A DNA stretch of 15,300 nt. It comes from an uncultured Magnetococcales bacterium (GTDB taxonomy: Bacteria; Pseudomonadota; Magnetococcia; Magnetococcales; Magnetaquicoccaceae). Shown here piece by piece: positions 1,175 through 15,300 of the stretch. How positions within the stretch are numbered: the first letter of the stretch is position 1; each line of letters opens with the position of its first letter. Under the pieces are notes generated by a model. It was not told where the DNA came from, did no database searches, and saw only the letters and a program-made list of their open reading frames with translations. The position numbers and the translations under genes are program-made. Where the stretch lies: positions 1-15,300 of the forward strand of contig CAIWLA010000129.1 of the NCBI GenBank assembly GCA_903913345.1. Reading direction: 5' to 3'.

Positions 1175-2182
1175 TCAGGAGATGGATGGTCCGTGACTCC
1201 AGGGAGTGACCAGGGCAGAAGCGGCCTCAATGGAACCGCCACGAGCAAAACCAATCATGTAGACGGCCAATTGGTGGAATACCGCCTGAATGAAGGGTGC
1301 GCCAATCCACATCACGTAGGGGCCTGGGTTGCAGTCCAGATAGAGATATTTTCCCGTGGTGGTTAGCATGATATCCCAGGCTGCGAAATGGAGACCCAGA
1401 AACCGATTGGCACGTACCATCTCCCGCTCCACATCTTCCGGCAGTTTGACATATTCAAACTGTTGCGAACCGGTTCTGGAATCGATACCCCCTGCGTCCG
1501 AAATAATCCGCAAAGCCAGTACGACCGTATCCGCGACAATATGCACCCGCACCGTCTGACCCTCCAGCCGTTCCTGCAACAAAACCGGACAGGTACGCAC
1601 CTCCTCCAACCGTTCCCAATCGGCACTGCGTATCAGACGAGAGGATCCCACTCCGATCGCCGGTTTGACAATGGCTTCGGGATATTTCTGCAAAAATTGC
1701 CCGGCCTGGATGGGATCATTGGTGGTCAGGGTATGGGGTACGGAAAAGCCGTTGGCGCGCAGCTTTTCGTAAAACTGCGCCTTGCTGTCATGGTCTATGT
1801 AGCCACGGGTTAACGGATTGATCACCAATTTGCCCTGGGCGACCAACCAAGCAAAAAAACTGGCCGTCGCCGCATGAAGAGGTTGCTCACGCAAATATTG
1901 CAGACGCCATTCCGCATGGGAGAGTTCATTCAGAACCGGTGGGGGTGCTGGCAACGTGTTGGGTGCGGTGCAGCGAATGTGAATGGCCCGAATGTCGGTA
2001 AAATCCACGCCTCCCCAGAACATGCGACCATGGCCCATGGTGAGTGTCGGGGCTTCCCGTCCAGACAACTGAATGTTGCACACCACTGGATCGGCTCCTT
2101 CGGCCAACAATGCCTCCCGCACGGCGGCCACCTGTTCGCTGCCAGCATTGCCAAACAGGGCGATACGAGGAGGTGTCGACAC
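1175..2182 (-). CDS. ATP-grasp ligase, RimK/graspetide-synthetase-like, active-site residues present
   Basis: Starts at GTG 2182-2180 (MSTPPRIALFGN..., 335 residues), because GAAGGA lies six bases upstream. A TTG at 2200 would add six residues but has no ribosome site. Expected ATP-grasp elements appear in order: an N-terminal pre-ATP-grasp Rossmann part (about 1-80); 'INPLTRGYIDHDSKAQFYEK' (121-140); 'AIVKPAIGVGSSRLI' with ATP lysine 173; 'PVLLQERLEGQTVRVHIV' with Glu204 and Arg212; and the metal-binding end 'AAWDIML...YLDCNPGP' with Asp270, Asp283 and Asn285. The family couples a carboxylate to an amine or hydroxyl through an acyl phosphate; graspetide synthetases use this to make side-chain ester or amide rings. 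It lies 55 bases after the terminator that follows the glycine-rich peptide genes, so it is probably expressed by read-through. The proposed substrate is those peptides (inference). It is paralogous to the ATP-grasp gene at 4167-3160. Confidence 0.85.
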   Translation of the reverse strand: MSTPPRIALFGNAGSEQVAAVREALLAEGADPVVCNIQLSGREAPTLTMGHGRMFWGGVDFTDIRAIHIRCTAPNTLPAPPPVLNELSHAEWRLQYLREQPLHAATASFFAWLVAQGKLVINPLTRGYIDHDSKAQFYEKLRANGFSVPHTLTTNDPIQAGQFLQKYPEAIVKPAIGVGSSRLIRSADWERLEEVRTCPVLLQERLEGQTVRVHIVADTVVLALRIISDAGGIDSRTGSQQFEYVKLPEDVEREMVRANRFLGLHFAAWDIMLTTTGKYLYLDCNPGPYVMWIGAPFIQAVFHQLAVYMIGFARGGSIEAASALVTPWSHGPSIS

Positions 2183-2237
2183 AAACAATCCTTCTTTCAA
2201 ATGAAGTGGAAACGGTTATGGCTTTGTATCAACGTAC

Positions 2238-2277
2238 AAAAAAAAGCAGGATGGGCCTGCTACAAACGGCCCATCCT
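2238..2277 (-). terminator. Strong intrinsic terminator after the glycine-rich peptide genes
   Basis: A perfect 10-bp stem (AGGATGGGCC / GGCCCATCCT) with a 10-base loop. In the minus direction it is followed by GC and then eight consecutive T. It starts 29 bases after the stop of the second peptide gene and ends 55 bases before the ATP-grasp start. This is the arrangement expected if precursor mRNA is made in excess and the ligase is expressed by partial read-through. Confidence 0.9.
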
Positions 2278-2305
2278 ACCCAAAACTTGAAGTGACCCGT
2301 CCTGA

Positions 2306-2566
2306 CTAGGACGTAATGTTGATGTCGCCAATGGAGGTGTTGTCGGACACATCACCACCCGATTGGCCCATCGAGGCACTGGCATTGGAATCACCACTGT
2401 GACCCAGGCCACCACCACCACCACCAGAAAAAAACTCGCCGCCACCACCACTACCCATACCGAGGGAGGCGGCACCGGCACCAACCCCTCCCGCTGCAAA
2501 TCCCATGGCCTCTCCACCAGACTTGCCACTTTGATTGATACCACCCATACTGCTGCTTCCAGTCAT
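2306..2566 (-). CDS. Glycine-rich putative precursor peptide, copy 1 (86 aa)
   Basis: An 86-residue protein (MTGSSSMGGINQSGKSGGEA...) with 29 glycines, many Ser and Ala, one Lys and no Cys, Pro or Arg. It matches copy 2 at 70 of 86 positions without gaps. Residues 47-86 are almost invariant and end DVSDNTSIGDINITS. GGGAG lies eight bases before the ATG. There is no signal peptide or hydrophobic segment, so export would need the C39 ABC exporter encoded upstream. C39 peptidases cut after Gly-Gly or Gly-Ala. Several Gly-Gly pairs exist (8-9, 17-18, 26-27, 70-71), but none has the usual hydrophobic -4/-7/-12 pattern. Cutting after 70-71 would free the invariant 15-residue end, rich in Asp, Ser and Thr. 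It matches no precursor I know; its substrate role is inferred from its neighbours. The strong Shine-Dalgarno sites, duplication and conserved tail make it a real gene. Confidence 0.8.
   Translation of the reverse strand: MTGSSSMGGINQSGKSGGEAMGFAAGGVGAGAASLGMGSGGGGEFFSGGGGGGLGHSGDSNASASMGQSGGDVSDNTSIGDINITS
2409..2426 (-). repeat. Trinucleotide tract (six CCA units) in copy 1
   Basis: Six uninterrupted CCA units on the plus strand encode most of the six-glycine run at residues 48-53. The matching tract in copy 2 has five units at 2754-2768 and then a synonymous change, so the glycine count is kept although the DNA tract is not. Slippage here would change glycine number in frame. Confidence 0.7.
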
Positions 2567-2650
2567 GTCGTTTGCTCCCTTATCCGTTTGTCTGTTGAAT
2601 GAAAAATATCCGCTGTCACGTTATCCGCACCACAACACCGACCACCCACA

Positions 2651-2911
2651 TTAGGACGTAATGTTGATGTCGCCAATGGAGGTATTGTCGGAAACATCGC
2701 CACCCATCTGGCCCATCGAGGCACTGGCACTGGAGTCACCACTGTGACCCAAACCACCACCACCACCACCCGATCCATAAAAACCACCGCCACCGCCACC
2801 CACACCGGCGGATTCGGAACCGGCACCAACCCCTCCAAAGGCACCGCCCATGGCATCACCGCCATGCTTGCCACTCTGACTGATACCACCCATATTGCTG
2901 CTTCCGGTCAT
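2651..2911 (-). CDS. Glycine-rich putative precursor peptide, copy 2 (86 aa)
   Basis: An 86-residue paralogue of the gene at 2566-2306 (MTGSSNMGGISQSGKHGGDA...), with 32 glycines and again no Cys, Pro or Arg. Differences from copy 1 cluster in residues 6-46 (for example Ser16 to His, Phe23 to Gly, and 'EFF' to 'FYG' at 44-46). From residue 47 onward only two positions differ, and the final 17 residues are identical. AAGGGG precedes the ATG by about seven bases. It is first in transcription order, 84 bases upstream of copy 1 with no terminator between, so the two are probably co-transcribed from the promoter at about 3003-3020. Placement between two ATP-grasp genes and downstream of a C39 exporter suggests a modified and secreted peptide. 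A structural glycine-rich extracellular peptide is an alternative. Confidence 0.8.
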   Translation of the reverse strand: MTGSSNMGGISQSGKHGGDAMGGAFGGVGAGSESAGVGGGGGGFYGSGGGGGGLGHSGDSSASASMGQMGGDVSDNTSIGDINITS

Positions 2912-2918
2912 GTCGTTT
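2651..2918 (-). repeat. Tandem gene duplication, unit 2
   Basis: Second member of the direct repeat with 2306-2573, including the shared start context. Beyond it, only a short GGTCGGTG-type match is shared in the upstream regions, so the duplication appears to cover the gene and its immediate leader rather than the promoter. Confidence 0.85.
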
Positions 2919-3002
2919 TCCCCTTCATCGTTATGTGTGGATTAAAAAGCCGCATGCCCATCGTCGCTGCCTCGGCACCGACCATGAGCTATAAAACAGA
3001 GA

Positions 3003-3020
3003 AAGCATTATTGATGCCAA
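3003..3020 (-). promoter_or_regulatory. Candidate sigma54 (-24/-12) promoter for the peptide genes
   Basis: The minus strand reads TTGGCATCAATAATGCTTT. It has GG and GC separated by exactly ten bases and matches TTGGCA (-24 side) and TGC (-12 side) of the TGGCACG-N4-TTGC consensus. Transcription would start near 2993, leaving a leader of about 82 bases before copy 2. The same TTGGCA could serve as a sigma70 -35 (5 of 6) with a poor -10 near TTTATA, 19 bases on. The sigma54 reading is preferred for its exact spacing and the dyads upstream. Confidence 0.45.
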
Positions 3021-3041
3021 TTTAATTTAATTTGTTAATTT

Positions 3042-3054
3042 ATTGTTATACAAT
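3042..3054. promoter_or_regulatory. Dyad ATTGT-TAT-ACAAT upstream of the peptide promoter
   Basis: A perfect 5-bp inverted repeat with a 3-bp centre, about 55 bases upstream of the predicted start point and inside an AT-rich stretch (3021-3060). A related sequence, ATTGTATACAT, lies at 3133-3143. It may be a regulator site, but in AT-rich DNA short dyads also occur by chance. Confidence 0.3.
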
Positions 3055-3104
3055 GTATTTTTCATTGCCATCTTCATGCATAGAACCCTTCTCCGGTCCG
3101 ATTT

Positions 3105-3119
3105 TCTAGTCATACTAGA
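3105..3119. promoter_or_regulatory. Dyad TCTAGT-CAT-ACTAGA, possible upstream activator site
   Basis: A perfect 6-bp inverted repeat with a 3-bp spacer, lying about 112-126 bases upstream of the predicted start point. That is the usual position for binding sites of sigma54-dependent activators. No regulator gene is in the window, so the binding protein is unknown. Confidence 0.4.
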
Positions 3120-3159
3120 CGGTCATTCCACTATTGTATACATGTCGTTTGGTTGGCAC

Positions 3160-4167
3160 TCAACGAACATACTTGCTGTGCTCCAATTCAAACAAAATTT
3201 TTAACAAACGCCTCAAAAACAGTGTGGGACGTTCCTGGTCAAGTTGGGGAGCAATGGCGGTATGATCCCGCCCAGTCAAAGTCTCCGCCAGACAGGTCAA
3301 CAAAAAATCCCGAAAAGGGATGGGCAACCAATCCAAGAGCGGATCGGGGTCTAAGTCATAGATCCAGGGACCGGAGGAAGAAGGCACAAAGGTAATAACG
3401 GCCCAGGCCACCCCCCACTCCTGTGCCAATCGCTGTAATGGAGCAGCCTGTTCGGCACAGGAGACGGACCAGAGATCGCCCAGGCTTTCCATCGGGGGGG
3501 TGTGTTGTGGGGGAGAGTGTTGCAAACATAAAATCATCTGGCCATTCAGGAGATAGCCGCGCATCAAGGGTCCAGAGATCCCTTCCGCCAACAATACCGG
3601 CGGTTTGTTGGGATCAATTAGGGCTTTCCTCTGTTTTTTCTGGAAAAGCTGCCAGGCCGCCCGTCCCGTGGCGGGTCGCCAGACCACGGTGGACATCTCC
3701 CGACAAAAGAGGTCGACATTTTCCATGTCATTACTGCACAGCAGGGCAGGAACCTGAAAACCGGAGGCCCGAAACCCTTCCAGCAGGGCAAATTTCATGG
3801 ACTGACCCAGATGGATCCGAGGGGGATTGAACAGGGTGACACCGCGTCGATCCAACTCCTCAAACAGGCTGAACAGGGCCGAATATTCCTGTTGATGGGA
3901 CAAATAGTCCACTTGCCAGACACTCCAATCGCGCTGGAGAGTGGCATCGGGAATGACGGGATTGGCATAAGAAAATCCGTGGATCCACATCCGGTCAAAC
4001 CCGGTCAATGGCTGGTCATTCCAGACCACATGGTCCGCATCCAGGAGAAGACGACCGGTACCGGGCGTCCAATCAAAGAGATGGCCACTGCCTGGGGCCA
4101 GATGGTTGATCCTCTCCAGCAACAGATGGGGAATGAGACCGGGTTTAGCAAACAGTCCAATTTTCAC
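3160..4167 (-). CDS. Degenerate ATP-grasp paralogue, possible pseudoenzyme partner
   Basis: A 335-residue protein (MKIGLFAKPGLIPHLLLERI...) from a GTG at 4167-4165 with GGAAGGG eight bases upstream. It is colinear with the ATP-grasp protein at 2182-1175: 'FDRMWIHGFSYANP' matches 'DIRAIHIRCTAPN', and 'GFRASGFQVPALLCSND' matches 'KLRANGFSVPHTLTTND'. The active-site positions have changed. The ATP lysine of 'AIVKP' is Arg164 in 'VVWRP'; the Asp of 'AAWDIML' is Ala256 in 'VAWAVITF'; and the metal-binding 'DCN' is 'DLD' (271-273). Glu195 and Arg203 remain. The loss of two metal ligands and the ATP lysine suggests weak or no ligase activity, perhaps a substrate-binding or regulatory partner of the intact enzyme (inference). 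It follows the TolC genes by 97 bases and precedes the peptide promoter. A C-terminal basic tail, 'LFLRRLLKILFELEHSKYVR', extends past the fold. Confidence 0.75.
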   Translation of the reverse strand: MKIGLFAKPGLIPHLLLERINHLAPGSGHLFDWTPGTGRLLLDADHVVWNDQPLTGFDRMWIHGFSYANPVIPDATLQRDWSVWQVDYLSHQQEYSALFSLFEELDRRGVTLFNPPRIHLGQSMKFALLEGFRASGFQVPALLCSNDMENVDLFCREMSTVVWRPATGRAAWQLFQKKQRKALIDPNKPPVLLAEGISGPLMRGYLLNGQMILCLQHSPPQHTPPMESLGDLWSVSCAEQAAPLQRLAQEWGVAWAVITFVPSSSGPWIYDLDPDPLLDWLPIPFRDFLLTCLAETLTGRDHTAIAPQLDQERPTLFLRRLLKILFELEHSKYVR

Positions 4168-4205
4168 GCAATATACCCTTCCATCTCGATAATCTCCCTC
4201 GAAAC

Positions 4206-4226: not shown

Positions 4227-4264
4227 CAGACAGAGGGTGCTAAATTGTTGCCGCCCAGAGCGGG

Positions 4265-6229
4265 TCAGTGACGATTGGTAAAATTGGGCGTCGCGCCACC
4301 AGCCTCCAACAGGGCCACCCGCTGACGGTCAAAGGGGTTGACTGCCGTCTGCCCTGCCAACCCCCCCGCCAGGATCCCTTGGGCGGCGGCCAATCGACTC
4401 TTCGCCTTTTGATGGTCAATCATGGCGGCTATTCGGGCCAGACGGGCATTCAAAAGAATGGTTGACTGGTTCAACAACTCCATTTCACTCAGATCGCCCC
4501 GGATTTCCCATCGATCCCTGGCCTTCTCAAGGGCCAGTGCAGCCAGTTTTTCGTTGTTCCGGGCCGAACTCAGTCGGGCGCGACCACTGGCCAGAGAGAC
4601 AAGGGCATCGTTCACCTCCTTGCTCACCGCCTGTTCCGCTGCTTGTTTAGACAATTGCGCACCCTCCACCGCATGGTCCTCCATGGCCAGGGTGGCCTTG
4701 GCTGCCCGGTTTTGCCAGGGATAAACATACGTGACCGAGCCATTGAAGGCGCGACTGTCTGGACTCAAGACATTGCTCACCGCATCAGTATAGGATTTAT
4801 AGCCGTACTGGGCATTGCTTTGACTCATGCTGCCGCTGCCAGAGAAGGTCAGATCGGGTCGTGTCTGGTTTTCCTGAAAATGACGTGCCAGCAGACTGGA
4901 CTGCACATCCAGATCCCGGACCTGCAATTCCGGTCTTTGTGCCAAAGCGGTCGCGATCGCCCCCTTGCCGTCCACGGACTTTGTCTCTTCTGCCAGTCGC
5001 TCTTGATAGGCCACAGGGAGCAAAAGGGCGTCACTCATCGGTTTGCGCCCCTCTTCAATCAACATGGCTAAGGCAGTCGAGGCAGCAACCAGGGATTGCC
5101 GTGCCGAGGCCTCTTGCACTTTGGCACTGGCCAACCCCATGGCCATTTGATCTCTGCCATATTGGGTCACCCGACCGGCTGCCAACAGACGGTCGGCATG
5201 GGCCGCCCTCTCCCCCAGGTATCGGCGATTTTCGATGGCAGCCAGCAAATTTTCCAGGGCACTCACCAGATCCCAATAGGCCAGATCAGCACTCTGCAAC
5301 GTGTCGTTGATGACCGCTTTCAACTGCCAATTCACCTGCTTGTCACCAATCTTTTTCTGCTCCAGATCCGTATTCAACTTGGAATAGGGACCATAATTTT
5401 TGCTGTAAGGCAACGGCGAATTTAGGCTGGCCGAGACGGAAACGGCCCAGGGGGCGTCCCAGCTTTTCTCATGGTTGGGATCATAGTAGCTTTCTTTGTA
5501 ACTCGTCCCATTGGTCAGCGTCAAACTCGATCCCCAGGGCAGTTGCTGCTGAATGGTCAAAGAACCGGTCTCCGTCATCAACCAACCCGGCCGCTGCTGT
5601 TTGCTGAGGTCATATGTTTGGTTGACAACGTTTGGATTGGGATCCGTTTTCAGAAATCCCAACCGGTTGGTTTGATATGCGCCCGGTGACTGAACATCCA
5701 GGTAAGGCTGACCATTTGTTGGGGTTACCCAAAACTTTTGCAAGTACACCGGACCACTGTTTTGCCGCTCGTAAACCATGGAACCCGACTGCCCCAAATC
5801 GACATAGAATACCGGTGCAAAGACGGCATTCGCCTCTTCTATGGCCTGTTTGGCCATTTCCGCATCCAACTTGCCAATTTGAATGGATAAATTGCGGCGC
5901 AATGCCTGCAATAAGACGGTGCCAGCAGGCAGATAGGCCAGTGGGTGTCCCAGAGAAGGATCCCAGTTGCCAACCGCCTGAGCATCGGCGAAGGATTTTT
6001 GTATGGTGGTCAATTGGGCCTGTTCCCGATCAGAAAGTGCCGGATCCAGCAGTGCGCTCAGGACCACGACATCCCTTTTTTCCTGACTAATCCCCGGCTT
6101 TGCCGCCTCAGCGGCCATGACGGGCGTACCACTGATGGCCAGCCCCAGCAGCCCCACCACACCGGCCACGACCGCCTGACACGCTGTCTCTACGAATAGG
6201 CCTGCGGGGAGATCGTTGCATCGTTTCAT
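4265..6229 (-). CDS. TolC-family outer-membrane channel protein, third of three tandem paralogues
   Basis: A 654-residue protein with an N-terminal signal peptide (hydrophobic about 18-37, cleavage near 'PVMAAEAA'). It has the two-repeat outer-membrane efflux architecture: coiled helices, 'SPLPYSKNYG' and 'AYWDLVSALENLL' in the first repeat (270-330), 'YVYPWQNRAAKA' in the second (501-512), and a long final helix pair (515-625). TolC itself is about 470 residues in mature form. The extra length is a 100-residue segment after the signal and an insertion of about 65 residues at 150-218, between the first two predicted barrel strands, where TolC has an extracellular loop. Its ATG overlaps the stop of the preceding paralogue (ATGA at 6229-6226), so translation is coupled. 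It should form an outer-membrane exit duct for the C39 exporter and HlyD adaptor encoded upstream. Whether it makes homotrimers or mixed trimers is unknown. Confidence 0.85.
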   Translation of the reverse strand: MKRCNDLPAGLFVETACQAVVAGVVGLLGLAISGTPVMAAEAAKPGISQEKRDVVVLSALLDPALSDREQAQLTTIQKSFADAQAVGNWDPSLGHPLAYLPAGTVLLQALRRNLSIQIGKLDAEMAKQAIEEANAVFAPVFYVDLGQSGSMVYERQNSGPVYLQKFWVTPTNGQPYLDVQSPGAYQTNRLGFLKTDPNPNVVNQTYDLSKQQRPGWLMTETGSLTIQQQLPWGSSLTLTNGTSYKESYYDPNHEKSWDAPWAVSVSASLNSPLPYSKNYGPYSKLNTDLEQKKIGDKQVNWQLKAVINDTLQSADLAYWDLVSALENLLAAIENRRYLGERAAHADRLLAAGRVTQYGRDQMAMGLASAKVQEASARQSLVAASTALAMLIEEGRKPMSDALLLPVAYQERLAEETKSVDGKGAIATALAQRPELQVRDLDVQSSLLARHFQENQTRPDLTFSGSGSMSQSNAQYGYKSYTDAVSNVLSPDSRAFNGSVTYVYPWQNRAAKATLAMEDHAVEGAQLSKQAAEQAVSKEVNDALVSLASGRARLSSARNNEKLAALALEKARDRWEIRGDLSEMELLNQSTILLNARLARIAAMIDHQKAKSRLAAAQGILAGGLAGQTAVNPFDRQRVALLEAGGATPNFTNRH

Positions 6230-8214
6230 GGACCATACTCCTTTGCTACCTGTTCATTCTGTCCCAACGATCCCATGGCGGCCAACTGATCGGTCTCTGC
6301 CTTCTTGGCTTCCACCTGGGCCAGAAGAAAATCCTTTTCAGCCGTCAATAAATCACCACTCTTGACGATCAACTCATATTCTACCACCCGCCCGGCGGTA
6401 CGTAACCGTTCCGCTCCCTCATAGGAAGCACGAGCTAACTGAAGATGTCGAGCTGTAATGGCAATGCGCAGCAAGGCACTGTCCAGAGCGGCATGGGCAT
6501 TTTTGATGGAACGCTCTACCTGGTTGTGAGCTAATTGCTGTTGCAGATCGCTCACCGACTGCTGGGCCTCTGCCTGTTTCACGTGGGCATTGGCCCATTG
6601 ATTTTTCCACGGATACCGGTATGTCGCGCCAACGGAGACGCTGATTGTATCAGGGTTGGCTAGGTTGGTCAGAGACTCCGACAGCGATCCATACCCAAAC
6701 GGTACACTGCTTTGTGTACCCGACAGGGAGGCATTCAAACTCAGATCGGGGCGGGCCTGACTTTCGGCCTGATTGCGATTCAAATCCGCTTGGTCTTTGC
6801 TGATTGTTTGTGACTGTAGTCGGGCATTGGCCAAGAGGCCAACCCGGATGGCCTCTTGGATGTCCATGCCAGCAAAATGGGATAATTCGACACTATAACC
6901 CACCGGAATCAGCAACACGGATTGGCTGTCCTTCATGTTTAGCAACAGTTTCAGGTTGTTGGACACCATGACATAATTATTCCAGGCTACAATCTCCTGG
7001 TTGCGTACCCGTTCCTGCTCTGCCTCCATCTGTGCCATGGCATAAGCGGTGGTCCGCTGCGAGTCAAACAATCGACGGGTTCTGGCCACCGATACCTCCA
7101 CCACGTGCTCGTTCTGAATGATGGCATCCAGTGTGCGCGATCCGCTGACCAGATCCCAGTATGCACTCTGCACCGTCTGCAAGAGGGTATTAGCTTGCGT
7201 CTGAAAATCAGCACGGCTGCGCTGCTGATCCAGTGCGGACGATTCAACCGTAGCATCCAATGCCGAGTAGCGACCAAAATTTTTCCCATAAGGAACCGGT
7301 ACAGCCAGCGAAGCGACCGACGACGATGTCCATGGTCGATCATAAGAGCCAATAATGGGACTAGGCGCGCCCGCGTGCAAAACCCACAAGGCATCCTGGT
7401 GGACGGTTTGTTCATTCAGTGCGGTCTCCACACCCCAAGGCAATGCCTTGTAGAGTCCCAGGGAAAAGGTTCCTGTCTGGGTCGCTCCTCCAGGATTGGC
7501 CTTGCTGGCATCTTCGTTGGTCAGGTAATACCCTTCAGGACGGGCCGTCGGACCAGGCGATGCTGCCGTACCCACCACGGCATTACCCGTCGAATCGTTC
7601 AACCGCAGAAAATGGACCGGACTCGTCGGTGGATACACCACAAAGGCCGGTTGGCTGGCTTCATCCGGAGTCAGCCCCTGGCAGATCCAAAGATCGTTAG
7701 GCCCACCACCTCCCAATGTGATGCCATTGGAGGTCGCATACCCCGCATCTGTTTGATGAATGACCTGAACCAGACTGCCATACTTGTCCAGGACGATCTT
7801 GTCGCCCGCTTGCGGACAGGGCGTAGTAGCCTTTTTGTATTTCATGTCCTGTACCGTTCGATCCAGGGTCTCCGAACGGCTAAAACTGCCGGATGCCGAC
7901 AAAACCGGATCAAAGGCAGCCTCACTTCTCTTTTGGGCCTCCTGGGTATTTTTGACCGTCAGGGATCCTTGCCGCAACGCCAGATTAGCTTGGATCGCCT
8001 TCTGTATCACCTCGGCCAGAGTGATCTCCATCCAGGACTGATCGGTAAAAGATAGAGCTGGTTGCCCTGCTTGCCAGGCACGAATGATCCGGTTGACCAC
8101 CTGCTCGGTTCGTTCCAGAGTGGCAGCGGGCACATCCGCATAAAGACCACGTTCCTGCGCGAGATAACCCAGACCGACCAGAAAGACAATCGGAAGTAAA
8201 TAACGTTTGGTCAT
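6226..8214 (-). CDS. TolC-family outer-membrane channel protein, second of three tandem paralogues
   Basis: A 662-residue protein with a short N-terminal signal (MTKRYLLPIVFLVGLGYLAQ). The TolC fold is recognised from 'LAEVIQKAIQANLALRQGSL' (66-85), 'FDPVLSASGSFSRSE' (101-115), 'VPVPYGKNFGRYSALDATVE' (305-324), 'AYWDLVSGSRTLDAI' and the second-repeat 'YRYPWKNQWANAHVKQAEA'. Between 'SGSFSRSE' and 'TGTFSLGLYKALPWG' (248-262) lies an insertion of about 130 residues rich in Gly, Pro, Ser and Thr, with a Cys pair at 133 and 178. By homology it sits on the cell surface or caps the barrel, and a disulfide there is possible. It begins inside the stop of the third-listed paralogue (ATGA at 8214-8211) and overlaps the next gene the same way. 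It is clearly paralogous to its two neighbours, so local duplication is likely. Confidence 0.85.
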   Translation of the reverse strand: MTKRYLLPIVFLVGLGYLAQERGLYADVPAATLERTEQVVNRIIRAWQAGQPALSFTDQSWMEITLAEVIQKAIQANLALRQGSLTVKNTQEAQKRSEAAFDPVLSASGSFSRSETLDRTVQDMKYKKATTPCPQAGDKIVLDKYGSLVQVIHQTDAGYATSNGITLGGGGPNDLWICQGLTPDEASQPAFVVYPPTSPVHFLRLNDSTGNAVVGTAASPGPTARPEGYYLTNEDASKANPGGATQTGTFSLGLYKALPWGVETALNEQTVHQDALWVLHAGAPSPIIGSYDRPWTSSSVASLAVPVPYGKNFGRYSALDATVESSALDQQRSRADFQTQANTLLQTVQSAYWDLVSGSRTLDAIIQNEHVVEVSVARTRRLFDSQRTTAYAMAQMEAEQERVRNQEIVAWNNYVMVSNNLKLLLNMKDSQSVLLIPVGYSVELSHFAGMDIQEAIRVGLLANARLQSQTISKDQADLNRNQAESQARPDLSLNASLSGTQSSVPFGYGSLSESLTNLANPDTISVSVGATYRYPWKNQWANAHVKQAEAQQSVSDLQQQLAHNQVERSIKNAHAALDSALLRIAITARHLQLARASYEGAERLRTAGRVVEYELIVKSGDLLTAEKDFLLAQVEAKKAETDQLAAMGSLGQNEQVAKEYGP

Positions 8215-10262
8215 GGCTTCGCCTCCACAGAAAGAACCGCCGCGTTACCCAAAAGACCCTGAGCAAACTGCAGATCGACCCAGGATTGTCGTCGCTCGGT
8301 CAATGCCTCGATCAGGTCCGCACGAGCCTCAAACAAACTCCGTTGTCGCTGAAGCAATTCAAATTCGGTCACGCGCTCCATGACGCGCAGTCGTTCGGCA
8401 GTGCGCAACGCCTCATCGGCCAGTCGCACTGCTGCACGCGCCATCTTGACCCGTTCCTCGCTGCCATGGGCCTTGGCTAATCCATTGGTTACATCACGAG
8501 CAACCTGCATCTCCATCAGGCTGGCGCGATCCATCGCCTGTGTGCGGGCGGAATTGGCCATGGCGTGGCGAGCTTTCTCTGCCCGATTTTCAAAAGGAAT
8601 GGTATACACCAACCCTACAAGATAGTTTCGCTCATCGGGCGTGGCCAAGGCACTGATGGAACTGCCGAAACTGTCATAACCGAAGAGGGCCGCAGAGCCT
8701 TTGCCCAAGGCATTGTAGGAGGCGGAAAAGGCCACATCGGGCAATAATTGTTGCGCGCGATAGTTTTTTTCCAGTTCTGCTTTTTGTACATCAATCTGTG
8801 CCGACCGGATTTCGGTACGATGCTCCAAGGCCGTCTGCGCAACGGACTGGTCATCCGGTATCACATCCGCAGCCAGTTCATCTCGATAGCCGTGCGGTAT
8901 GACGAGCAGTTCTGGAGTCAAATTCAACTGTTCGGCCAACTCATTGGCACGGGCCACCCAACTGTTCCAGGCAATCTCCTCCTGGTTGCGGGCATCTTCC
9001 AGATCGGTTTCCGTCTGGACTCGATCATACTCGGTGACCCGTTGCACCTGGTACAACCGCTGCACTTGCTCCATTCGTTGTTCTAGCAGGTTGCGCTGTT
9101 CCACAGCAGATAACACCGTCAACTGGCTACGCACCAGAGACCAATAAGCCCCGATGGCATCTTTGAGGGTCTGATTGACCTGTGCGGCCTGTGCCGACTG
9201 GCTCTTTTCATAATCAAAAGATGCCTGTTTGATCTGCACCGCCGTTCCAAAGCCCTCGGAACCAAAATTTTTGGTGTAGGGTAACGGCATGTTCAGGCCA
9301 ACGGAAAGCGTACTGGCCCACTCCTGATCTCCCACGGCCAAAGCCGTTTCCAGGGGGGCACCCATGGGTTTGAGAGGAACGGGTTGGGGGGTATCATAAG
9401 GAAGATAGGTGGTATTTATCCCGACATTGACAGCCCCTCCCCAGGGAAAGGGCTGGTAAATACCCAAATTGCCGGACCAGTACGGAGACCAATCAAACTT
9501 CCTGCTGGAAAACTCTTCAAAGGTGCCGAGTATATCCGCACCACACGTGCTTCCAGAGGTGATATTGACACCATCATCCAGCACACAAAAGTCCAATCCC
9601 GATGTATCAAATCCCGGCAAATCAGACCATTTTTTGCCCACATCCGTGCTCTGGACCGTCTTTGGCTGGGAAGATCCGACGACAGGATAGCTTTTACCAA
9701 CATCACCTGGCTGTATAGCATTCGTAGCCCAAGTCGGGGTGGGCGTTCGCAATCGGGTAATCACTGCGCTTCTGTCACGCCCCTTACTGCGGTTATACCG
9801 AACCGACAGGTTGAGTTCCGGGTTCAATGCCGCTTCCGTCGCTAGGAGGTTTTGTTTGGCCATATTGACCTGATGGGGCTGCATGGCCACCGTTGGATTG
9901 TGTTCCATGACCTGTTGCACCACATCCTGAACGGAAAAGGGTCGGATCGTCTTGCTGAAGACAAACCGCTTGGCACCAGAGGACCGCTTGGAGGTCGCCG
10001 CCTCCAGCAGATTCTGGAACCGTACCTCTCCCGCCGCCAACCATTTCAAGACGGACTTTTCCTCTGCCCAGGCATTGGCTCGTAAAGGAACATCCGGCAA
10101 TGCGGCGGAATCTGGCGCAGACAACAGGCCCTCGCGCACCGGTTGCGCAGAGTCAACCTCCTGACAAACCCCTTGAGGCGATGGCAGGCAAACCACCCAC
10201 AGGAAGATCCCAGGGGTTATCCATCGATGGATACTGAAATATCTTGGCAGACTGGATTTCAA
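8211..10262 (-). CDS. TolC-family outer-membrane channel protein, first of three tandem paralogues
   Basis: A 683-residue protein starting at TTG 10262-10260, with AGAGGA five bases upstream; no in-frame ATG fits better. The signal segment is 'WITPGIFLWVVCLPSPQGVC' (14-33), with no good lipobox, so an ordinary signal peptide is likely. A 75-residue pre-domain precedes the TolC repeats: 'VQDVVQQVMEHNPTVAM' (111-127), 'NPELNLSVRYNRS' (147-159), 'MPLPYTKNFG' (325-334), 'AYWSLVRSQLTV', and the second-repeat 'YTIPFENRAEKARHAMA'. The first extracellular loop is enlarged (about 158-262) and carries Cys226 and Cys240, which could pair. It starts 30 bases after the FHA-domain gene and is coupled by ATGA to the next TolC paralogue, so three channel subunits are made in series. 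Confidence 0.85.
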   Translation of the reverse strand: MKSSLPRYFSIHRWITPGIFLWVVCLPSPQGVCQEVDSAQPVREGLLSAPDSAALPDVPLRANAWAEEKSVLKWLAAGEVRFQNLLEAATSKRSSGAKRFVFSKTIRPFSVQDVVQQVMEHNPTVAMQPHQVNMAKQNLLATEAALNPELNLSVRYNRSKGRDRSAVITRLRTPTPTWATNAIQPGDVGKSYPVVGSSQPKTVQSTDVGKKWSDLPGFDTSGLDFCVLDDGVNITSGSTCGADILGTFEEFSSRKFDWSPYWSGNLGIYQPFPWGGAVNVGINTTYLPYDTPQPVPLKPMGAPLETALAVGDQEWASTLSVGLNMPLPYTKNFGSEGFGTAVQIKQASFDYEKSQSAQAAQVNQTLKDAIGAYWSLVRSQLTVLSAVEQRNLLEQRMEQVQRLYQVQRVTEYDRVQTETDLEDARNQEEIAWNSWVARANELAEQLNLTPELLVIPHGYRDELAADVIPDDQSVAQTALEHRTEIRSAQIDVQKAELEKNYRAQQLLPDVAFSASYNALGKGSAALFGYDSFGSSISALATPDERNYLVGLVYTIPFENRAEKARHAMANSARTQAMDRASLMEMQVARDVTNGLAKAHGSEERVKMARAAVRLADEALRTAERLRVMERVTEFELLQRQRSLFEARADLIEALTERRQSWVDLQFAQGLLGNAAVLSVEAKP

Positions 10263-10292
10263 TGGAATCCTCTCATGATTCTGGCATTGGGC

Positions 10293-11603
10293 CTATTGCA
10301 GTACCTCTTTCCAACGACTGATGGCGGGTAAATCCTCCTCGTCCACCTGGGTGACAATGCGCCCGAACAAAGGAAACTGTACGCTCAATAAAATATTGAT
10401 GCTGGTATCTTTCTTTAGTTTGACAATATTTCCGCTAACTTTACCCATGGACGTCATCCACTCCTGAGTGGGTCGGTCCGTGGACTTCTTGGAGGGGCGC
10501 GGATAGCGTTGGCGAAACTGCTGTACGGTGACAACATTCTTGACCAAATCCAGCAGTCCACGCATATCTTTCAGCCAAGCCTGCTTTTCCAAACTCCTGG
10601 TCCAATCGGCGGATACAAAGGCGACCAATTCGTCGACCATAGACTCCGTCTGTTGTGGATGTTCCTCTTGTGCAAAAAGTATCACCTGTCGCTCCAGACG
10701 CAAAAACCGCAAACGAACCTGCAACTCTTTTAGTTCCATGTTGCCTGGATAGCGTTCCGCATCCGCAGAGAGGGGTTTGAGCAACCCTTCAATCGTCGCA
10801 ATTTGTGTATTCAGATCATTGTTGGAGAGTGTGCCCTTGACCATCTCGTAAGCATCTAAAAACTTTTTAATCTCTTTTTGATACCGTTGTACCTCGTCAC
10901 CGCCACCTGGTCCCTTTTGCAGGGTGTATATCCCGTATCCTCCTCCGACCAGTGCCAACAAAAGGATGAATAACACTATCATTTTGATGGAAACCTTCGG
11001 TGAAGGCTCCTCCGACTTTACAAACATGGAGGGCACCGAAGCTGCCCTGCCCGCCTCTTTGGACGGTTTTTCTTCAACCTCTTCTTCCTGGGCTAGGTCC
11101 AGCAATTTCACGATCTTGTCGGCATTGTCTTCGTGATTGCCGCCCAGAAACAAGGTCTCGTTGTCGACGGACTGCCCGTGCCTAGGGGACGGAGCAACCG
11201 CAACCGGGTCGTCCACCACAAATTGAAAGGGAACGGCACCTATTTTGATAAAATCGCCGGGCACCAGAAAGGCATGTTTCTCCCGGATCCCCTTGATCCA
11301 AACGCCGTTGGTGGACCCCAGATCCTCAATGGCCCACTTACCCTGTAAGGGAGAAATGCGCGCATGCTGACCGGAAACACCCTTGTAGAGAATGGGATCG
11401 GTATTGTTGGGATTGCGTCCCAACGTATGGATGCCGCCAGTCAGGGCAATCACCAACCCCTTTTGTTTCGGATCCAGTTGTGAATCGTCCAAACAGATTA
11501 ACCTCGCCATGGGAACGGCCAGCGGATCAGTACTGACCCCAGCACCGCCTGGAGCAAGGTGGCCCACCATAATCGTCGCTCCGTCACCATCATCTGGTGT
11601 CAT
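10293..11603 (-). CDS. FHA-domain protein with one membrane helix and a periplasmic tail
   Basis: A 436-residue protein from the ATG at 11603-11601 (MTPDDGDGATIMVGHLAPGG...), chosen because AAGGA lies eight bases upstream; the frame could extend 12 codons further without a ribosome site. The N-terminal forkhead-associated domain (about 33-130) keeps the phosphothreonine-binding set: Gly62-Arg63 in 'GRNPNNTD', Ser77 and His80 in 'GVSGQHARI', and Asn99 in 'LGSTNGVWI'. An acidic linker (150-205) leads to one transmembrane helix, 'MIVLFILLLALVGGGYGIYT' (208-227), then about 205 residues with helical, coiled-coil-like content ('ELKELQVRLRFLRLERQVIL') predicted to face the periplasm. This layout resembles FHA-containing type III and type VI secretion scaffolds more than typical type I export genes. 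It may recognise a phosphorylated partner or help assemble the export complex. Its position between the exporter and channel genes ties it to the same machine. Confidence 0.85.
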   Translation of the reverse strand: MTPDDGDGATIMVGHLAPGGAGVSTDPLAVPMARLICLDDSQLDPKQKGLVIALTGGIHTLGRNPNNTDPILYKGVSGQHARISPLQGKWAIEDLGSTNGVWIKGIREKHAFLVPGDFIKIGAVPFQFVVDDPVAVAPSPRHGQSVDNETLFLGGNHEDNADKIVKLLDLAQEEEVEEKPSKEAGRAASVPSMFVKSEEPSPKVSIKMIVLFILLLALVGGGYGIYTLQKGPGGGDEVQRYQKEIKKFLDAYEMVKGTLSNNDLNTQIATIEGLLKPLSADAERYPGNMELKELQVRLRFLRLERQVILFAQEEHPQQTESMVDELVAFVSADWTRSLEKQAWLKDMRGLLDLVKNVVTVQQFRQRYPRPSKKSTDRPTQEWMTSMGKVSGNIVKLKKDTSINILLSVQFPLFGRIVTQVDEEDLPAISRWKEVLQ

Positions 11604-11702
11604 GGTGTTCATCCTTGTAAAAAGGTTTCCATCTATCATCTTGTTATCAATACGGAAATTACACGCATACTGTTCGTTTCCAAAGGGCGGAAGAGAGCCA
11701 GT

Positions 11703-14700
11703 CTATTGACCGGACGCAGACAAATCAAGGGGCGGCAAACCAAATTGTGACGCTGCCAGGGCATAGTACAGGCCGGAATAGCCTTTTTCTCGCAAATAAT
11801 CGGGATCCGTCAATTCTTGATGGGTTCCTTTTTCCGCCACCTTGCCATCCTTGAGGAAACAGATGGCATCAGAGTTAATGATCGTTGTCAACCGATGGGC
11901 AATGGTGATGGAGGTTTTACCCATTAAAATCTGGTTGATATTCTTTTGCACCAACGCCTCCGTTTGATTGTCCAGGGCACTGGTCGCTTCATCAAACAGC
12001 ATGATTTTCGGTCGGCGATAAATGGCTCGGGCGATGCAGATGCGCTGCCTCTGTCCGCCAGAGACCCCCATCCCCTTCTCGCCGATAGGGGTCTGATATC
12101 CCATGGCCATTTTTTGAATAAAATCATCGGCCCCCGACAATCTGGCGGCCTCTTTGACCTGAATCATGTTGGGTTCTGGATCGCCCAGCGCAATATTTTC
12201 CGCCACCGTACCGCTGAACAAAAAGCCATCCTGCAACACCACTCCAATATTGCGTCGCAAAACGGAGAGGTCCAACTCACGAATATCCTTGCCGTCAATG
12301 TAACATGTGCCCCCGGAGGGCAACGGCATGTTAAAGCCCAGAATCATTTTGGCTACTGTGCTTTTGCCACATCCAGCCGCCCCCACAAAGGCAACATGTT
12401 GGCCGGGTTCAATGGTCAATTCAAACTCCTTCATGATGAAGGCCTCCTTGCCGGAGGCTGTGGTATAGCTGAAATTAACCTTGTCAAAGGCAATACGGCC
12501 CTCAACGGTCTCGCCCAGGGTGGCGGGCAGGCGATCAGGGGAGGTGACCGGTTCCTGTTCCGGTTTGACGTTCAGGATATCCGTTACCCGCTCCACCGCA
12601 ATACGGACATCCTGAGAGCTGTTCCAAAGCTGAACGACCTGAAAGACTGGCCCCATGACCATGCCCAACAGCATTTGAAAACCCATCAACTCTCCAACGG
12701 TCATATTGCCCGCCATCACCTGATTGGCCCCGATCCAGAGAATGGCCACAGTGGAAGCTAATTGCACTAATTGATTTAAGTTGTTGGAAATCAGACTCAA
12801 TCTTTGCGCCTGGAATCCCATGTTGATGTTCTCCACAAAGGCATCCTCCCAACGGGCACGCGCCATGTATTCGTTGGCGGTGGCCTTGATGGATTCAATC
12901 GCATTCAAGGATTCGATCAGATTGGATTGCGACCTGGCACCGGTCAAAAACATTTGCTGGGAAAGTGCCTTCATACGCGGCGTAAAGTAGAGTGTAATGC
13001 CAACATAGAGGGGAATGAAAAGCATGGAGACCAACGACAGGGGCACACTGTAGCCGAACATCATGAAAAAATAGATGAACATCATCAACAAACTGAGGAT
13101 GATCGTGATGGTCGAACCCGCGATAATGCCCCGGATCTTTTGATTTTCGCCAAACCCCGCCAAAATTTCACCCTTGTTGCGGGTCAAAAAGAAACTCATC
13201 GGCAAGCTCAGCACGTGCCGATAAAACTCCGACATCATTTTGATGTCAATGCGGGTGGTGGTGTGGGCCAGAAGCAGACTTTGGGAGACAGTGGTGATCG
13301 TTTTGAGTATGGCCACCAGAATCATACCCCCCAGCATCATGTTCAACAGGCTGACATCCTTGTGCACCACCACCGTATCCACGATGGTCTGCGTGAAGAG
13401 AGGTGCCGCCAGGCCGAGCAGATTGAGCAGCAACGAGGCCACCAACGCATCGCCAAAATATTTTTTGTAGGGTAACACGTAGCGGACAAAGTGCATGATG
13501 GGCCGTTTGGGTGGCTCAGCATATTCAAATTTGAGAGTGGGATTCAGGGCAATAAAAACGCCCTTGTCCGCCTCGGTGACCGTGCCAGGCACCTGCGCCT
13601 GTGTCCATCCCGTTTCAAATTCCTGACGGGTCAGTTTGAGATGCCCCTTGACCGGATCGGCCAGGAAGACATACTTGTCGGTGAGGCGGTAGAGGACAAT
13701 ATAGTGATGCCCTTCCCAACCCACAATACCGGGCAGCTTGACCCCCTGGATCTCCTCGAAACGCAGGGCATAGGCACTGGCATTAAAACCCAACCGCTCG
13801 GCCCCGGCAATGACGGCATCCGGGGTGACTCCCGACGAGGACAGATTGCTAAGTTCCACAATCTGTCCCAGTTTGAACGCCTTGCCATAGTGGTTGCAGA
13901 TCATGGTCAGGCAGGCTGCCCCGCAATCGCTGGCCGCCCGTTGCCGAACCACCGGAAACGTCTTGATCTCCCCGGTCTTGCCCTTTTCCTCGACCTCCAG
14001 TATCCGGAACTCTGCCTCCGTAACACCCGCTGCGAGACGGATGCGTTGATCCACCCCTTCGGAGCGTTGCCGGGAATCAACCTCTTGCTGCTCCTTGTCC
14101 TGCAGGGAGAGAGCACGCAACCGCAACTGCTCGTTGAGAGAGGGATTGATGGCCAGAATTCTGGCCAGTTCCTCCTGGTGAAACACTAGAACGGTCGCAT
14201 CCTTCACAGCTTTGGCTGTATGGGGTTGGATACCCGTCGCACTCAATTCCGGCAGTGCCCCACTCTCGCCAAACAGCGAGCCAGCGTAGACATGATCCAG
14301 AACCACCTCTGGCCCCTGCAAAGACTGACGAACGAGAACAATCTCCCCCTTTTCAATGTAATACAAACGGGGGTCGGTATGTCCCTGTTCGTAAACTGCA
14401 TGACCGGAGACCACATTTTTGACCCCAATCTGGTGCAAAATTTCGACAAAATCGATCGCCTGATACGAAGAATCGCCCAACATGCCCCGCAGACGTTGCG
14501 CCAGGAGCAGATATCCGATCTCTGTCTTGAACAGATGCGCCATCTCCTCGTTTCCCGGCAACATTCTGCGTACACCGATGGTGGGCATCACCAGGGCGGT
14601 GACTGACTCCTCGGCCATGATCTGATACGGCCAATGATCTTCCCTGATCAGGGAAGTCTCCCCAAAACTGGTATGTTTTTCCACCAAACCCAGGCTGATT

Positions 14701-14915
14701 CGTTTGCCCTCGCTGGTGCGTCTCAGCCGAACCTTGCCAGAATATAGATAGAGAAAGGTCTCTATAGGACTATCCTGCTCGACGATGACAGCACCCGGTT
14801 CAAAGGTCCGCAGTTCAAACTGCGTCTGCAAAAATTCCTTGTCATGGCTAGGCAACTGACTGAACATGATGTGAGTGGCGAGAATGTGGCGAATGGCTTC
14901 TTGCGTAGCGTTCAT
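11703..14915 (-). CDS. Peptidase-containing ABC exporter with two cNMP-binding-like domains (C39 / ABC)
   Basis: A 1070-residue protein; AGGAG lies eight bases before the ATG. Domain order: a cyclic-nucleotide-binding-like domain (about 10-125, 'FGETSLIRE'); a second one (about 153-262, 'FGESGALPE'); a C39 peptidase (315-440) with Cys331 in 'SDCGAACL', His403 or His404 in 'WEGHHYIVL' and Asp420 in 'ADPVKG'; a six-helix membrane domain (480-770); and an ATPase with Walker A 'GAAGCGKST' (Lys851), signature 'VSGGQ' (951-955), Walker B 'IMLFDEATSALD' (Asp975, Glu976) and His1007. All catalytic residues are present. Such exporters cut a leader after Gly-Gly or Gly-Ala and export the product. The double-CNB, C39, ABC architecture resembles cyanobacterial HetC and NHLM-type transporters. 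In both CNB domains the phosphate-binding Arg before Ser/Thr-Ala is absent (Pro-Tyr-Gln and His-Thr-Ala instead), so cyclic nucleotide may not bind. It follows the HlyD gene by 112 bases. Confidence 0.93.
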   Translation of the reverse strand: MNATQEAIRHILATHIMFSQLPSHDKEFLQTQFELRTFEPGAVIVEQDSPIETFLYLYSGKVRLRRTSEGKRISLGLVEKHTSFGETSLIREDHWPYQIMAEESVTALVMPTIGVRRMLPGNEEMAHLFKTEIGYLLLAQRLRGMLGDSSYQAIDFVEILHQIGVKNVVSGHAVYEQGHTDPRLYYIEKGEIVLVRQSLQGPEVVLDHVYAGSLFGESGALPELSATGIQPHTAKAVKDATVLVFHQEELARILAINPSLNEQLRLRALSLQDKEQQEVDSRQRSEGVDQRIRLAAGVTEAEFRILEVEEKGKTGEIKTFPVVRQRAASDCGAACLTMICNHYGKAFKLGQIVELSNLSSSGVTPDAVIAGAERLGFNASAYALRFEEIQGVKLPGIVGWEGHHYIVLYRLTDKYVFLADPVKGHLKLTRQEFETGWTQAQVPGTVTEADKGVFIALNPTLKFEYAEPPKRPIMHFVRYVLPYKKYFGDALVASLLLNLLGLAAPLFTQTIVDTVVVHKDVSLLNMMLGGMILVAILKTITTVSQSLLLAHTTTRIDIKMMSEFYRHVLSLPMSFFLTRNKGEILAGFGENQKIRGIIAGSTITIILSLLMMFIYFFMMFGYSVPLSLVSMLFIPLYVGITLYFTPRMKALSQQMFLTGARSQSNLIESLNAIESIKATANEYMARARWEDAFVENINMGFQAQRLSLISNNLNQLVQLASTVAILWIGANQVMAGNMTVGELMGFQMLLGMVMGPVFQVVQLWNSSQDVRIAVERVTDILNVKPEQEPVTSPDRLPATLGETVEGRIAFDKVNFSYTTASGKEAFIMKEFELTIEPGQHVAFVGAAGCGKSTVAKMILGFNMPLPSGGTCYIDGKDIRELDLSVLRRNIGVVLQDGFLFSGTVAENIALGDPEPNMIQVKEAARLSGADDFIQKMAMGYQTPIGEKGMGVSGGQRQRICIARAIYRRPKIMLFDEATSALDNQTEALVQKNINQILMGKTSITIAHRLTTIINSDAICFLKDGKVAEKGTHQELTDPDYLREKGYSGLYYALAASQFGLPPLDLSASGQ

Positions 14916-14996
14916 ACGTCAAACTCCTGGCACAAAGGGTCTGCGGTTACCGGTGACTGCCTGATGAGACGGACGGACATACAATGGCACTGATCG

Positions 14997-15020
14997 ATGG
15001 AACAACAGGTTCGGTTCCAT
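14997..15020 (-). other. Small hairpin between the HlyD and exporter genes
   Basis: ATGGAAC, ten bases, GTTCCAT: a perfect 7-bp stem just after the HlyD stop in the transcription direction. No T run follows, so it is unlikely to terminate; an mRNA-processing or stability element is possible. Confidence 0.25.
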
Positions 15021-15027
15021 GCCTGAA

Positions 15028-15300
15028 TCACTCCTCTTTCTGGGTAAAAAATCGGGAAATAGGCGAAAAGACCAGTTCAATCAGTCGCTTTTCCCCCGTT
15101 TTGATCTCTGCAGAACCTTCCAGGCCAATTTCAAGCTGTCGCGGCTTTTCATCCCGCTTGGCAATGGTCTCCTCTTTCAAGGCGATGCGCACCTTATAGA
15201 GGGACTCCTGTCCGGCGACACCACCCGGTTTGGCGGCAATGTCGGAGATGATCCCCTCAGGAATGCCGTATTCCTGGTAGGGATAGGCAAAATATTTGAC
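15028..15300 (-). CDS. HlyD-family membrane fusion protein, C-terminal part only
   Basis: The last 90 codons and stop of a gene that enters from the right edge: VKYFAYPYQEYGIPEGIISD... then 'ESLYKVRIALKEETI' and 'GLEGSAEIKTGEKRLIELVF', ending ...SRFFTQKEE. The stretch from 'GLEGSAEIKTG' into the closing hydrophobic helix is typical of the C-terminal beta-barrel end of type I secretion adaptors. These proteins bridge the inner-membrane ABC exporter to TolC. The N-terminal membrane helix, lipoyl and coiled-coil parts are outside the window. Its position directly upstream of the C39 exporter fits that role. Confidence 0.85.
   Translation of the reverse strand, partial: VKYFAYPYQEYGIPEGIISDIAAKPGGVAGQESLYKVRIALKEETIAKRDEKPRQLEIGLEGSAEIKTGEKRLIELVFSPISRFFTQKEE

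Follow-up and report, generated by a model that had tools for sequence, protein, structure and literature searches.

A candidate system for graspetide-like peptide modification and export, with two ATP-grasp paralogues and three TolC proteins, in an uncultured Magnetococcales bacterium

The DNA analyzed here, referred to as the window, is one entire contig of 15,300 bases from the 3.63-Mb, 729-contig genome of an uncultured Magnetococcales bacterium. It carries genes for two glycine-rich peptides, two ATP-grasp proteins, and an export line with three TolC proteins, which form one conserved system across distantly related environmental bacteria. All cluster genes are located on the minus strand, so that the direction of transcription runs from position 15,300 to position 1,175. 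The order in this direction is the end of a gene for a HlyD-type membrane fusion protein, the ATP-binding cassette (ABC) exporter, the FHA-domain protein, TolC1, TolC2, TolC3, the second ATP-grasp protein (ATPg2), peptide A, peptide B, a hairpin, and the first ATP-grasp protein (ATPg1; Table 1). HlyD is represented by its last 90 residues because the contig stops there; the HlyD-type protein of locus L032 in a relative, which served as its reference, matches Pfam HlyD_3. The exporter of 1070 amino acids is composed of two stretches binding cyclic nucleotide monophosphates (cNMP), the C39 peptidase, the membrane domain, and the ATPase, in this order. The listed start codon of ATPg1 is TTG, and the real start may be elsewhere. 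The peptide genes form a tandem duplication of 288 nt with 82% identity and differ by 18 synonymous and 16 non-synonymous codons over 87 codons including the stop. Five hairpins of the kind found in front of ATPg1 were detected in the scanned region compared to a mean of 3.4 after shuffling, and as a class they are not significant.

Table 1. Features of the gene cluster in the 15,300-base window
Feature	Positions	Strand	Evidence and remarks
ATP-grasp 1 (ATPg1), likely catalytic graspetide-synthetase-like ligase	1175..2200	-	Pfam ATP-grasp_3 1e-7; PDB; conserved residues
Terminator-like hairpin and T run between peptide B and ATPg1	2245..2261	-	Hairpin scan
Peptide B	2306..2566	-	86 aa; KSGGE ... 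DNTSIGDINITS
Peptide A	2651..2911	-	86 aa; KHGGD ... DNTSIGDINITS
Sigma-54-type -24/-12 promoter upstream of peptide A	3004..3019	-	TGGCATCAATAATGCT; weight-matrix scan
ATP-grasp 2 (ATPg2), divergent, probably non-catalytic partner	3160..4167	-	Same fold
TolC3, outer-membrane channel subunit	4265..6229	-	Pfam OEP 8.4e-25; own clade, 100/99
TolC2, outer-membrane channel subunit	6226..8214	-	Pfam OEP 2.1e-21; own clade, 100/98; 99/97 with more genomes
TolC1, outer-membrane channel subunit	8211..10262	-	Pfam OEP 6.9e-34; own clade, 100/99
FHA-domain protein with one predicted membrane helix near residue 216	10293..11639	-	Pfam FHA 8.2e-11; hydropathy peak
C39-peptidase ABC exporter, 1070 aa, two N-terminal cNMP-binding domains	11703..14915	-	Domain matches; catalytic Cys and His present
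HlyD-type membrane fusion protein, last 90 residues	15028..15300	-	77% identity over 90 residues to L032 protein

A preliminary description of this DNA had placed two glycine-rich paralogues of 86 amino acids between two ATP-grasp genes and near an exporter, which is borne out. It had also described a complete C39-ABC/HlyD/TolC line on one strand; the single strand holds, but the line is not complete in the window, where HlyD is truncated. The ABC exporter, HlyD, and TolC partners lie side by side in L032, L065, and L094, the arrangement expected of type I secretion. The genes for HlyD, the exporter, the FHA protein, TolC1, TolC2, and TolC3 are consecutive in this order in L032, L065, L094, and L156, and the same order, beginning at the FHA protein or the exporter, was found in L034 and the window. 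In the window, L032, and L034, TolC3 is immediately followed by ATPg2, the peptide genes, and ATPg1. In the other carriers these genes are on separate contigs; they are divergent in genome G398, and ATPg1 faces ATPg2 in G499 and G716. The peptide arrays comprise two to five genes.

In total, 150 related genomes, the source genome among them, were searched separately with several components. Queries with the ATP-grasp protein, the peptide, and TolC2 each matched six genomes, and the six were identical. Five of them have ATPg2 itself, and G019 was matched via ATPg1. The exporter query (E 1e-200) matched the same six and G042, and TolC proteins of the OEP family (E 1e-15) were found solely in carriers. 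The probability that two such six-genome sets drawn from 150 are identical by chance is 7e-11 under the assumption of independent genomes, which these are not. The six carriers are spread over six different families, and no carrier was found among the listed genomes of the same genus (6 others) and of the same family (11), so that the distribution is patchy. The ATPg1 search led to a seventh carrier, G398; named relatives matching ATPg1 are five Magnetococcales metagenome-assembled genomes (MAGs) and one Betaproteobacteria MAG, and among the hosts named for ATPg2 homologues are Magnetococcales, with one homologue from 'Magnetococcales bacterium HHB-1', as well as Gammaproteobacteria, Methylococcaceae, a Deltaproteobacterium, and a Planctomycetota MAG. 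The peptide profile alone recovered one new carrier (G290) from 398 genomes of the phylum and four (G499, G631, G716, and G728) from 369 genomes belonging to the same class as G398. All four of the latter possess both ATPg1 and ATPg2.

Among the 12 carriers, ATPg1 was detected by similarity in 11; in the twelfth, G290, its first codons were read by eye near a contig end, with frame breaks. ATPg2 is present in 11 of 12, the exception being G019, whose contigs are broken at that point, and the exporter is likewise present in 11 of 12 (G499 was left out of the exporter search, and HlyD was seen there). Consecutive TolC genes occur in all 12, as a triplet in eleven (some cut or frame-broken) and as two genes up to the contig end in G631. 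The co-occurrence of the peptides with the ATP-grasp pair and the exporter, suggested as a check in the preliminary description, was seen in the whole genomes searched, and peptides lacking an ATP-grasp partner were looked for and found in none of the 12 carrier genomes. The genes constitute a conserved system above chance expectation, because the gene order recurs in other genera and three component searches match the same six genomes. In G290, the reading frames of one peptide gene, ATPg1, ATPg2, the TolC genes, and the exporter are broken or interrupted by a stop codon (L060, L066, and L099), which may reflect assembly error or decay. A phage or plasmid module was considered and rejected: viral contigs gave 30 stretches matching a pattern, none of which was confirmed, the peptides had no match in PHROGs, and plasmids gave a single partial match (38%).

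ATP-grasp enzymes together with C39 exporters make and secrete graspetides such as microviridins. The best PDB match of the ATPg1 profile was 7drm (PsnB; 124 bits, E 3.4e-35), followed by MdnC, MdnB, PruB, CdnC, and AMdnB, and RimK was the next fold after these graspetide synthetases. ATPg1 also matches the TIGR04187, MvdC, and MvdD models. The lysine of a VKP motif is conserved in 11 of 11 aligned ATPg1 sequences and the motif DCNPGP in all ten that cover it, the window included; we take both to be ATP-site residues. In ATPg2, for which no Pfam match was obtained, the ATP-site lysine is replaced in all 11 aligned sequences. ATPg1 thus looks catalytic, and ATPg2 is probably a degenerate, non-catalytic partner. 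The two ATP-grasp enzymes of the preliminary description are a homologous pair, but to call both enzymes is an overstatement because ATPg2 lacks both the Pfam match and this lysine; the reading that both proteins are catalytic was rejected on the basis of the alignment. The locus represents a natural case of an enzyme retained together with a degenerate paralogue.

The profile search with the peptides in a protein database was passed by 176 proteins, of which 120 were listed, and the motif counts rest on those 120. Of the 120 listed homologues, 119 retain K-x-[GS]-G-[D/E] close to the N-terminus; the lysine is invariant, and the residue four positions on is D in 112, E in 7, and N in 1 (two of these motifs were read by eye). 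Near the C-terminus, D-[NQ]-[TS] occurs in all 120 (NT in 117, QT in 2, and NS in 1), a count taken from a regular expression that all of the listed proteins matched. Of the peptide frames detected in the loci by BLAST alone, 45 of 49 hold both motifs. A set of 45 distinct locus peptides collected with a regular expression requiring both motifs is not independent evidence. Glycine, serine, and alanine account for 55% of the residues in the listed homologues. Both ends are conserved, and conservation is among the highest in the C-terminal block and at the very end of the peptide, whose middle is rich in Gly, Ala, and Ser and variable even within a single array. The Asp preceding the D-N-T block, well conserved in the first set, is replaced by S, N, or G in a number of carriers from the class to which G398 belongs. 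An AlphaFold2 model of peptide A was disordered (predicted local distance difference test (pLDDT) 46, predicted template modeling score (pTM) 0.13). Two subtypes recur within one array, either with an AWV-N-DPIG mid-region or without it and then mostly with AYAEG or VYAEG (L032, L034, and L036). One frame of G631 (L141:8952-9221), which adjoins a normal copy, is the sole intact frame without D-N-T; it has DNP and a C-terminal tail instead, and one may ask whether it is a drifting or retired copy.

As in graspetide loci, putative precursor genes with a conserved donor (K) and acceptor (D/E) residue are located beside a synthetase-like gene. According to passages of PMC13097080, nuclear magnetic resonance showed that the corallotide lactam connects Lys9 with Asp13 within a KIVAD motif, and the dehydrated product is resistant to trypsin. 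The spacing of lysine and acid in K-x-[GS]-G-[D/E] is the same, and because of this identity and the acidic residue in 119 of the listed homologues, one lactam is predicted at this motif. Peptides A and B contain a single Lys and no Arg; a lactam at this Lys would therefore abolish their sole trypsin site and allow a simple read-out. The Lys is residue 15, the acid of the motif residue 19, and the D and T of the C-terminal block residues 75 and 77; the calculated monoisotopic masses, Met included, are 7557.208 for peptide A and 7604.270 for peptide B. The proposal that the glycine-rich peptides are the substrates stands, given their co-occurrence with the ATP-grasp pair and exporter and the position of PsnB as the nearest solved relative of ATPg1. 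By analogy, the chemistry is probably graspetide-like.

Of the 12 arrays with at least two peptide genes, 10, the window included, have a sigma-54-type site ahead of their first gene, compared with 2 of 198 control genes from these loci. Without the window, where the site was first seen, the count is 9 of 11 arrays. The scan used weights set by us from the consensus with a cut-off of 19, corresponding to a chance of 0.032 per 350 bases, and a second pattern was drawn up after the site had been seen. In a first grouping, the site was present in 8 of 8 large or window arrays and in 3 of 15 others; the arrays were then regrouped by size. The control genes stem from 27 loci, and a few were counted twice, as L041 and L065 overlap; the array of G019 was left out of the promoter count. 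A gene encoding a sigma-54 activator is located further upstream of HlyD in L065, L097, L098, and L155, and none was recognized in L094. The array promoters and the linked activator gene suggest that the arrays and the exporter form one regulon. A gene for a PpiC-type peptidyl-prolyl isomerase lies upstream of HlyD in seven of the nine carrier loci in which this DNA is available. The window contig ends before the positions of both genes, which are predicted to lie upstream of it, and the best PpiC match elsewhere in the source genome (E 2.3e-7 over 66 of 250 residues) was not taken as an orthologue. PpiC was rejected as a constant part of the system on the count of seven in nine loci. In two genomes, a lone peptide gene is located where PpiC would be expected, between HlyD and a Calx-beta protein of about 900 amino acids (L148:1252-4400 and L151:4609-7574); the latter is a possible surface anchor.

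The best NCBIfam match of the exporter is type_I_sec_HlyB, under its cut-off. The catalytic Cys and His of the C39 domain are present in the window and altogether in 10 of the 11 carriers with sequence, the window included. In a tree of 31 TolC proteins from 11 carriers, calculated without G290 and without an outgroup, the proteins named TolC1, TolC2, and TolC3 by position form three clades (100/99, 99/97, and 100/99), and these clades were also recovered in an earlier tree calculated from 20 proteins of seven carriers. For one TolC each in G499, G716, and G728, BLAST gave a best match other than the positional counterpart; the larger tree places all of them by position. The lengths range from 615 to 743 amino acids where the frame is uncut. 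The trees indicate that the three TolC proteins are ancient lines in fixed order and not recent copies. TolC channels are trimers. As there is one ABC–HlyD pair and, among the 150 genomes, the TolC OEPs are restricted to carriers, the simplest reading would be a hetero-trimer of TolC1, TolC2, and TolC3, and the locus offers a direct test case of whether TolC channels can be obligate hetero-trimers. The FHA protein retains R, S, H, and N at its phosphothreonine site in all 11 sequences compared, which come from ten carriers and G042. A PP2C phosphatase gene adjoins ATPg1 or the peptide genes in three carriers (G499, G716, and G631), and such an arrangement of FHA and PP2C proteins resembles phosphothreonine-gated secretion elsewhere. 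The FHA protein and the three TolC proteins, noted in the preliminary description as unusual in such clusters, turned out to be standing parts of the system.

We propose that the genes encode a self-contained system that makes, modifies, and exports peptides, with graspetide-like chemistry, a TolC hetero-trimer, gated opening, and a role at the cell surface; we assign a probability of about 0.55 to this proposal as a whole. A sigma-54 activator would turn on the peptide genes, as judged from the promoter and the linked activator gene. ATPg1, with ATPg2 as non-catalytic partner, would then activate side-chain carboxylates of the peptides, and at least one side-chain lactam would be closed, most likely between the Lys and the Asp or Glu four residues on, whereas the conserved C-terminal D-N-T may form a second ring or a docking site; residue conservation and the corallotide precedent point in this direction. 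Export would proceed through one HlyD–C39-ABC–TolC conduit, alongside which a PpiC-type isomerase is encoded in most relatives, and the outer-membrane trimer would be composed of TolC1, TolC2, and TolC3. Opening might be gated from inside by a nucleotide on the cNMP domains of the exporter and by phosphothreonine on the FHA protein. Outside, the presumably silk-like peptides would serve as surface or matrix material and not as a toxin, which is the weakest step of the proposal. A bolder version, rather unlikely in our estimation, is a new secreted covalent matrix in which the ATP-grasp pair, one catalytic and one a scaffold, would fasten these silk-like peptides at K-x-G-G-D and D-N-T, possibly joining both ends of one peptide to each other or one peptide to its neighbors, to be deposited on the cell surface via the first obligate hetero-trimeric TolC, gated by phosphothreonine and nucleotide.

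Several observations weigh against the proposed system. PpiC is absent beside HlyD in two of nine loci. The peptide genes of G499, G631, and G716 are distributed over four to six contigs, mostly away from the enzymes, as if distant substrates served one enzyme and one exporter. Two of the 12 arrays, L144 and L145, both from G499, lack the sigma-54-type site, as do most single peptide genes (present in 1 of 11, and there at a doubtful position of -300), which seem to be controlled otherwise. One of the 120 listed homologues has N instead of D/E after K-x-G-G, and four of the 49 BLAST-only frames lack a motif; one of these is frame-broken (G290), two are cut at contig ends, and one is intact (G631). 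G042 has HlyD, C39 exporter, and FHA protein (47% identical; L077:9469-14997) without the TolC triplet, the ATP-grasp proteins, and the peptides. The HlyD–C39–FHA unit is therefore not strictly dedicated, and a strictly dedicated exporter was rejected on this ground. In G042, Cys and His of the C39 domain are lost, and a kinase with a cNMP domain precedes HlyD.

The leader, too, is a point against the proposal, as the C39 peptidase is apparently active in 10 of 11 carriers, yet no separate leader was seen in the 120 listed sequences except P0047. Peptides A and B have no double-glycine leader, in agreement with the preliminary description, and their frames extend just 10 and 18 codons beyond the 86. 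In P0047 (115 amino acids, from the protein database), a double-glycine leader is fused ahead of the usual start, and this sequence links the peptide family to C39 export. Both Cys and His are lost in carrier G025, and leader cleavage is therefore not essential everywhere. We read this as C39 recognition being general, with cleavage probably not always needed.

The genes could also be an ordinary graspetide cluster of a published group with a peptidase-containing transporter (PCAT), in which nothing but the export genes would be unusual. Such a cluster would account for the proximity of ATPg1 to PsnB and its matches to the TIGR04187, MvdC, and MvdD models, although the TIGR04187 score is 78 bits against a cut-off of 350. 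Passages of PMC13097080 describe 43 groups and report a protease or PCAT in the neighborhood for groups 26, 30, 32, and 40. According to PMC8939145, some microviridin-like loci have two ATP-grasp genes. PPIases (peptidyl-prolyl isomerases) are known neighbors. ATPg1 may fall into one of the 43 groups. However, FHA, TolC, cyclic nucleotide, and Magnetococc- are not mentioned in the passages of PMC8939145, nor FHA and "second ATP-grasp" in those of PMC13097080, and a degenerate second ATP-grasp protein, the TolC triplet, and sigma-54 control are equally absent from the survey passages. Among 5.39 million open-access papers, none contains ATP-grasp together with Magnetococc-, and none contains any of three peptide motifs. 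We regard an ordinary cluster as rather unlikely. A different chemistry without ring closure, in which the ATP-grasp proteins would act like RimK and extend the carboxylate end by amino acids or link peptides to one another, fits the high conservation of the C-terminal block and end, the rank of RimK as the next fold after the graspetide synthetases, and the fact that, past the Lys, three of the four G398 peptides carry no side-chain acids other than the two conserved ones. Such a chemistry appears doubtful to us, as ATPg1 is closer in sequence and fold to PsnB, MdnC, and CdnC than to RimK, and the invariant Lys with the exchange of D for E four residues on fits a side-chain lactam.

Small size, richness in glycine, several paralogues, and a C39 exporter presumably make the peptides resemble class II microcins, that is, bacteriocins leaving via C39–HlyD–TolC with the ATP-grasp proteins merely stabilizing them. 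We consider this improbable: a double-glycine leader is missing except in P0047, the ends are nearly invariant between distant hosts and not diversifying, and no further small gene recurs beside the peptides in the annotated loci, in which no search aimed at immunity genes was made. A low-complexity coincidence of glycine-rich frames beside unrelated ATP-grasp genes, conceivable at a Gly, Ser, and Ala content of more than half of the residues, is refuted by the conserved non-glycine ends in the 120 listed homologues and the identical genome sets obtained in the three component searches, and its probability is negligible.

Proteins of the FGE-sulfatase type were observed near a solitary peptide gene and, as a fusion with a protein kinase, at a distance of about 4.6 kb from ATPg1 (L038:383-2284 and L036:7033-8580). 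In the window, genes for a ParE-type toxin (PF05016) and a ribbon-helix-helix antitoxin (PF01402) adjoin the cluster on the minus strand (positions 330-877).

A description of the system as a whole was not found in the open-access literature searched, survey supplements aside, and within this scope the earlier suggestion of an undescribed class survives. New are the degeneration of one ATP-grasp protein, the apparently ancient TolC triplet, the sigma-54-type promoter on most arrays, and the sigma-54 activator upstream of the exporter in four relatives. The connection of chemistry resembling that of ribosomally synthesized and post-translationally modified peptides (RiPPs) with sigma-54-type and phosphothreonine control would point to a regulated surface function in uncultured bacteria and not to a stray natural product.

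Compared to the known graspetides (PsnB/plesiocin, MdnB-MdnC/microviridin, CdnC, corallotide, and rosaritide), the system shares a PsnB-type ATP-grasp ligase beside small precursor genes and, according to the passages of PMC13097080, K and D/E at positions i and i+4 as in the KIVAD lactam of corallotide. A PpiC-type PPIase is encoded nearby, like MirC, the partner described for rosaritide, and C39-ABC and HlyD are common neighbors of graspetide genes, with two ATP-grasp proteins in some microviridin-like loci, as far as the passages of PMC8939145 describe them. In contrast to the graspetides, there is no leader of a known kind, conserved motifs occupy both ends of the peptide around a variable Gly-rich middle, and the degenerate second ATP-grasp protein, the TolC triplet, the FHA protein, and the sigma-54-type promoter are added to an ATPg1 far under the TIGR04187 cut-off. 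Like the HetC-type exporters described in passages of PMC10986499, which have an N-terminal cNMP domain, the exporter combines cNMP-binding, C39, membrane, and ATPase domains in a single polypeptide. For HetC of Nostoc, these passages report ppGpp (guanosine tetraphosphate) binding, which shows that a cNMP domain can be important for a C39 exporter, and no typical leader was found encoded in the vicinity of hetC. Unlike HetC, the exporter described here has two cNMP domains, and its HlyD and TolC partners and a candidate substrate are encoded in the same operon. With type I secretion of the HlyB-HlyD-TolC kind, the system has the inner-membrane ABC protein, HlyD, and TolC in common; it differs in the three co-conserved TolC paralogues per ABC–HlyD pair and in the FHA protein encoded in the operon.

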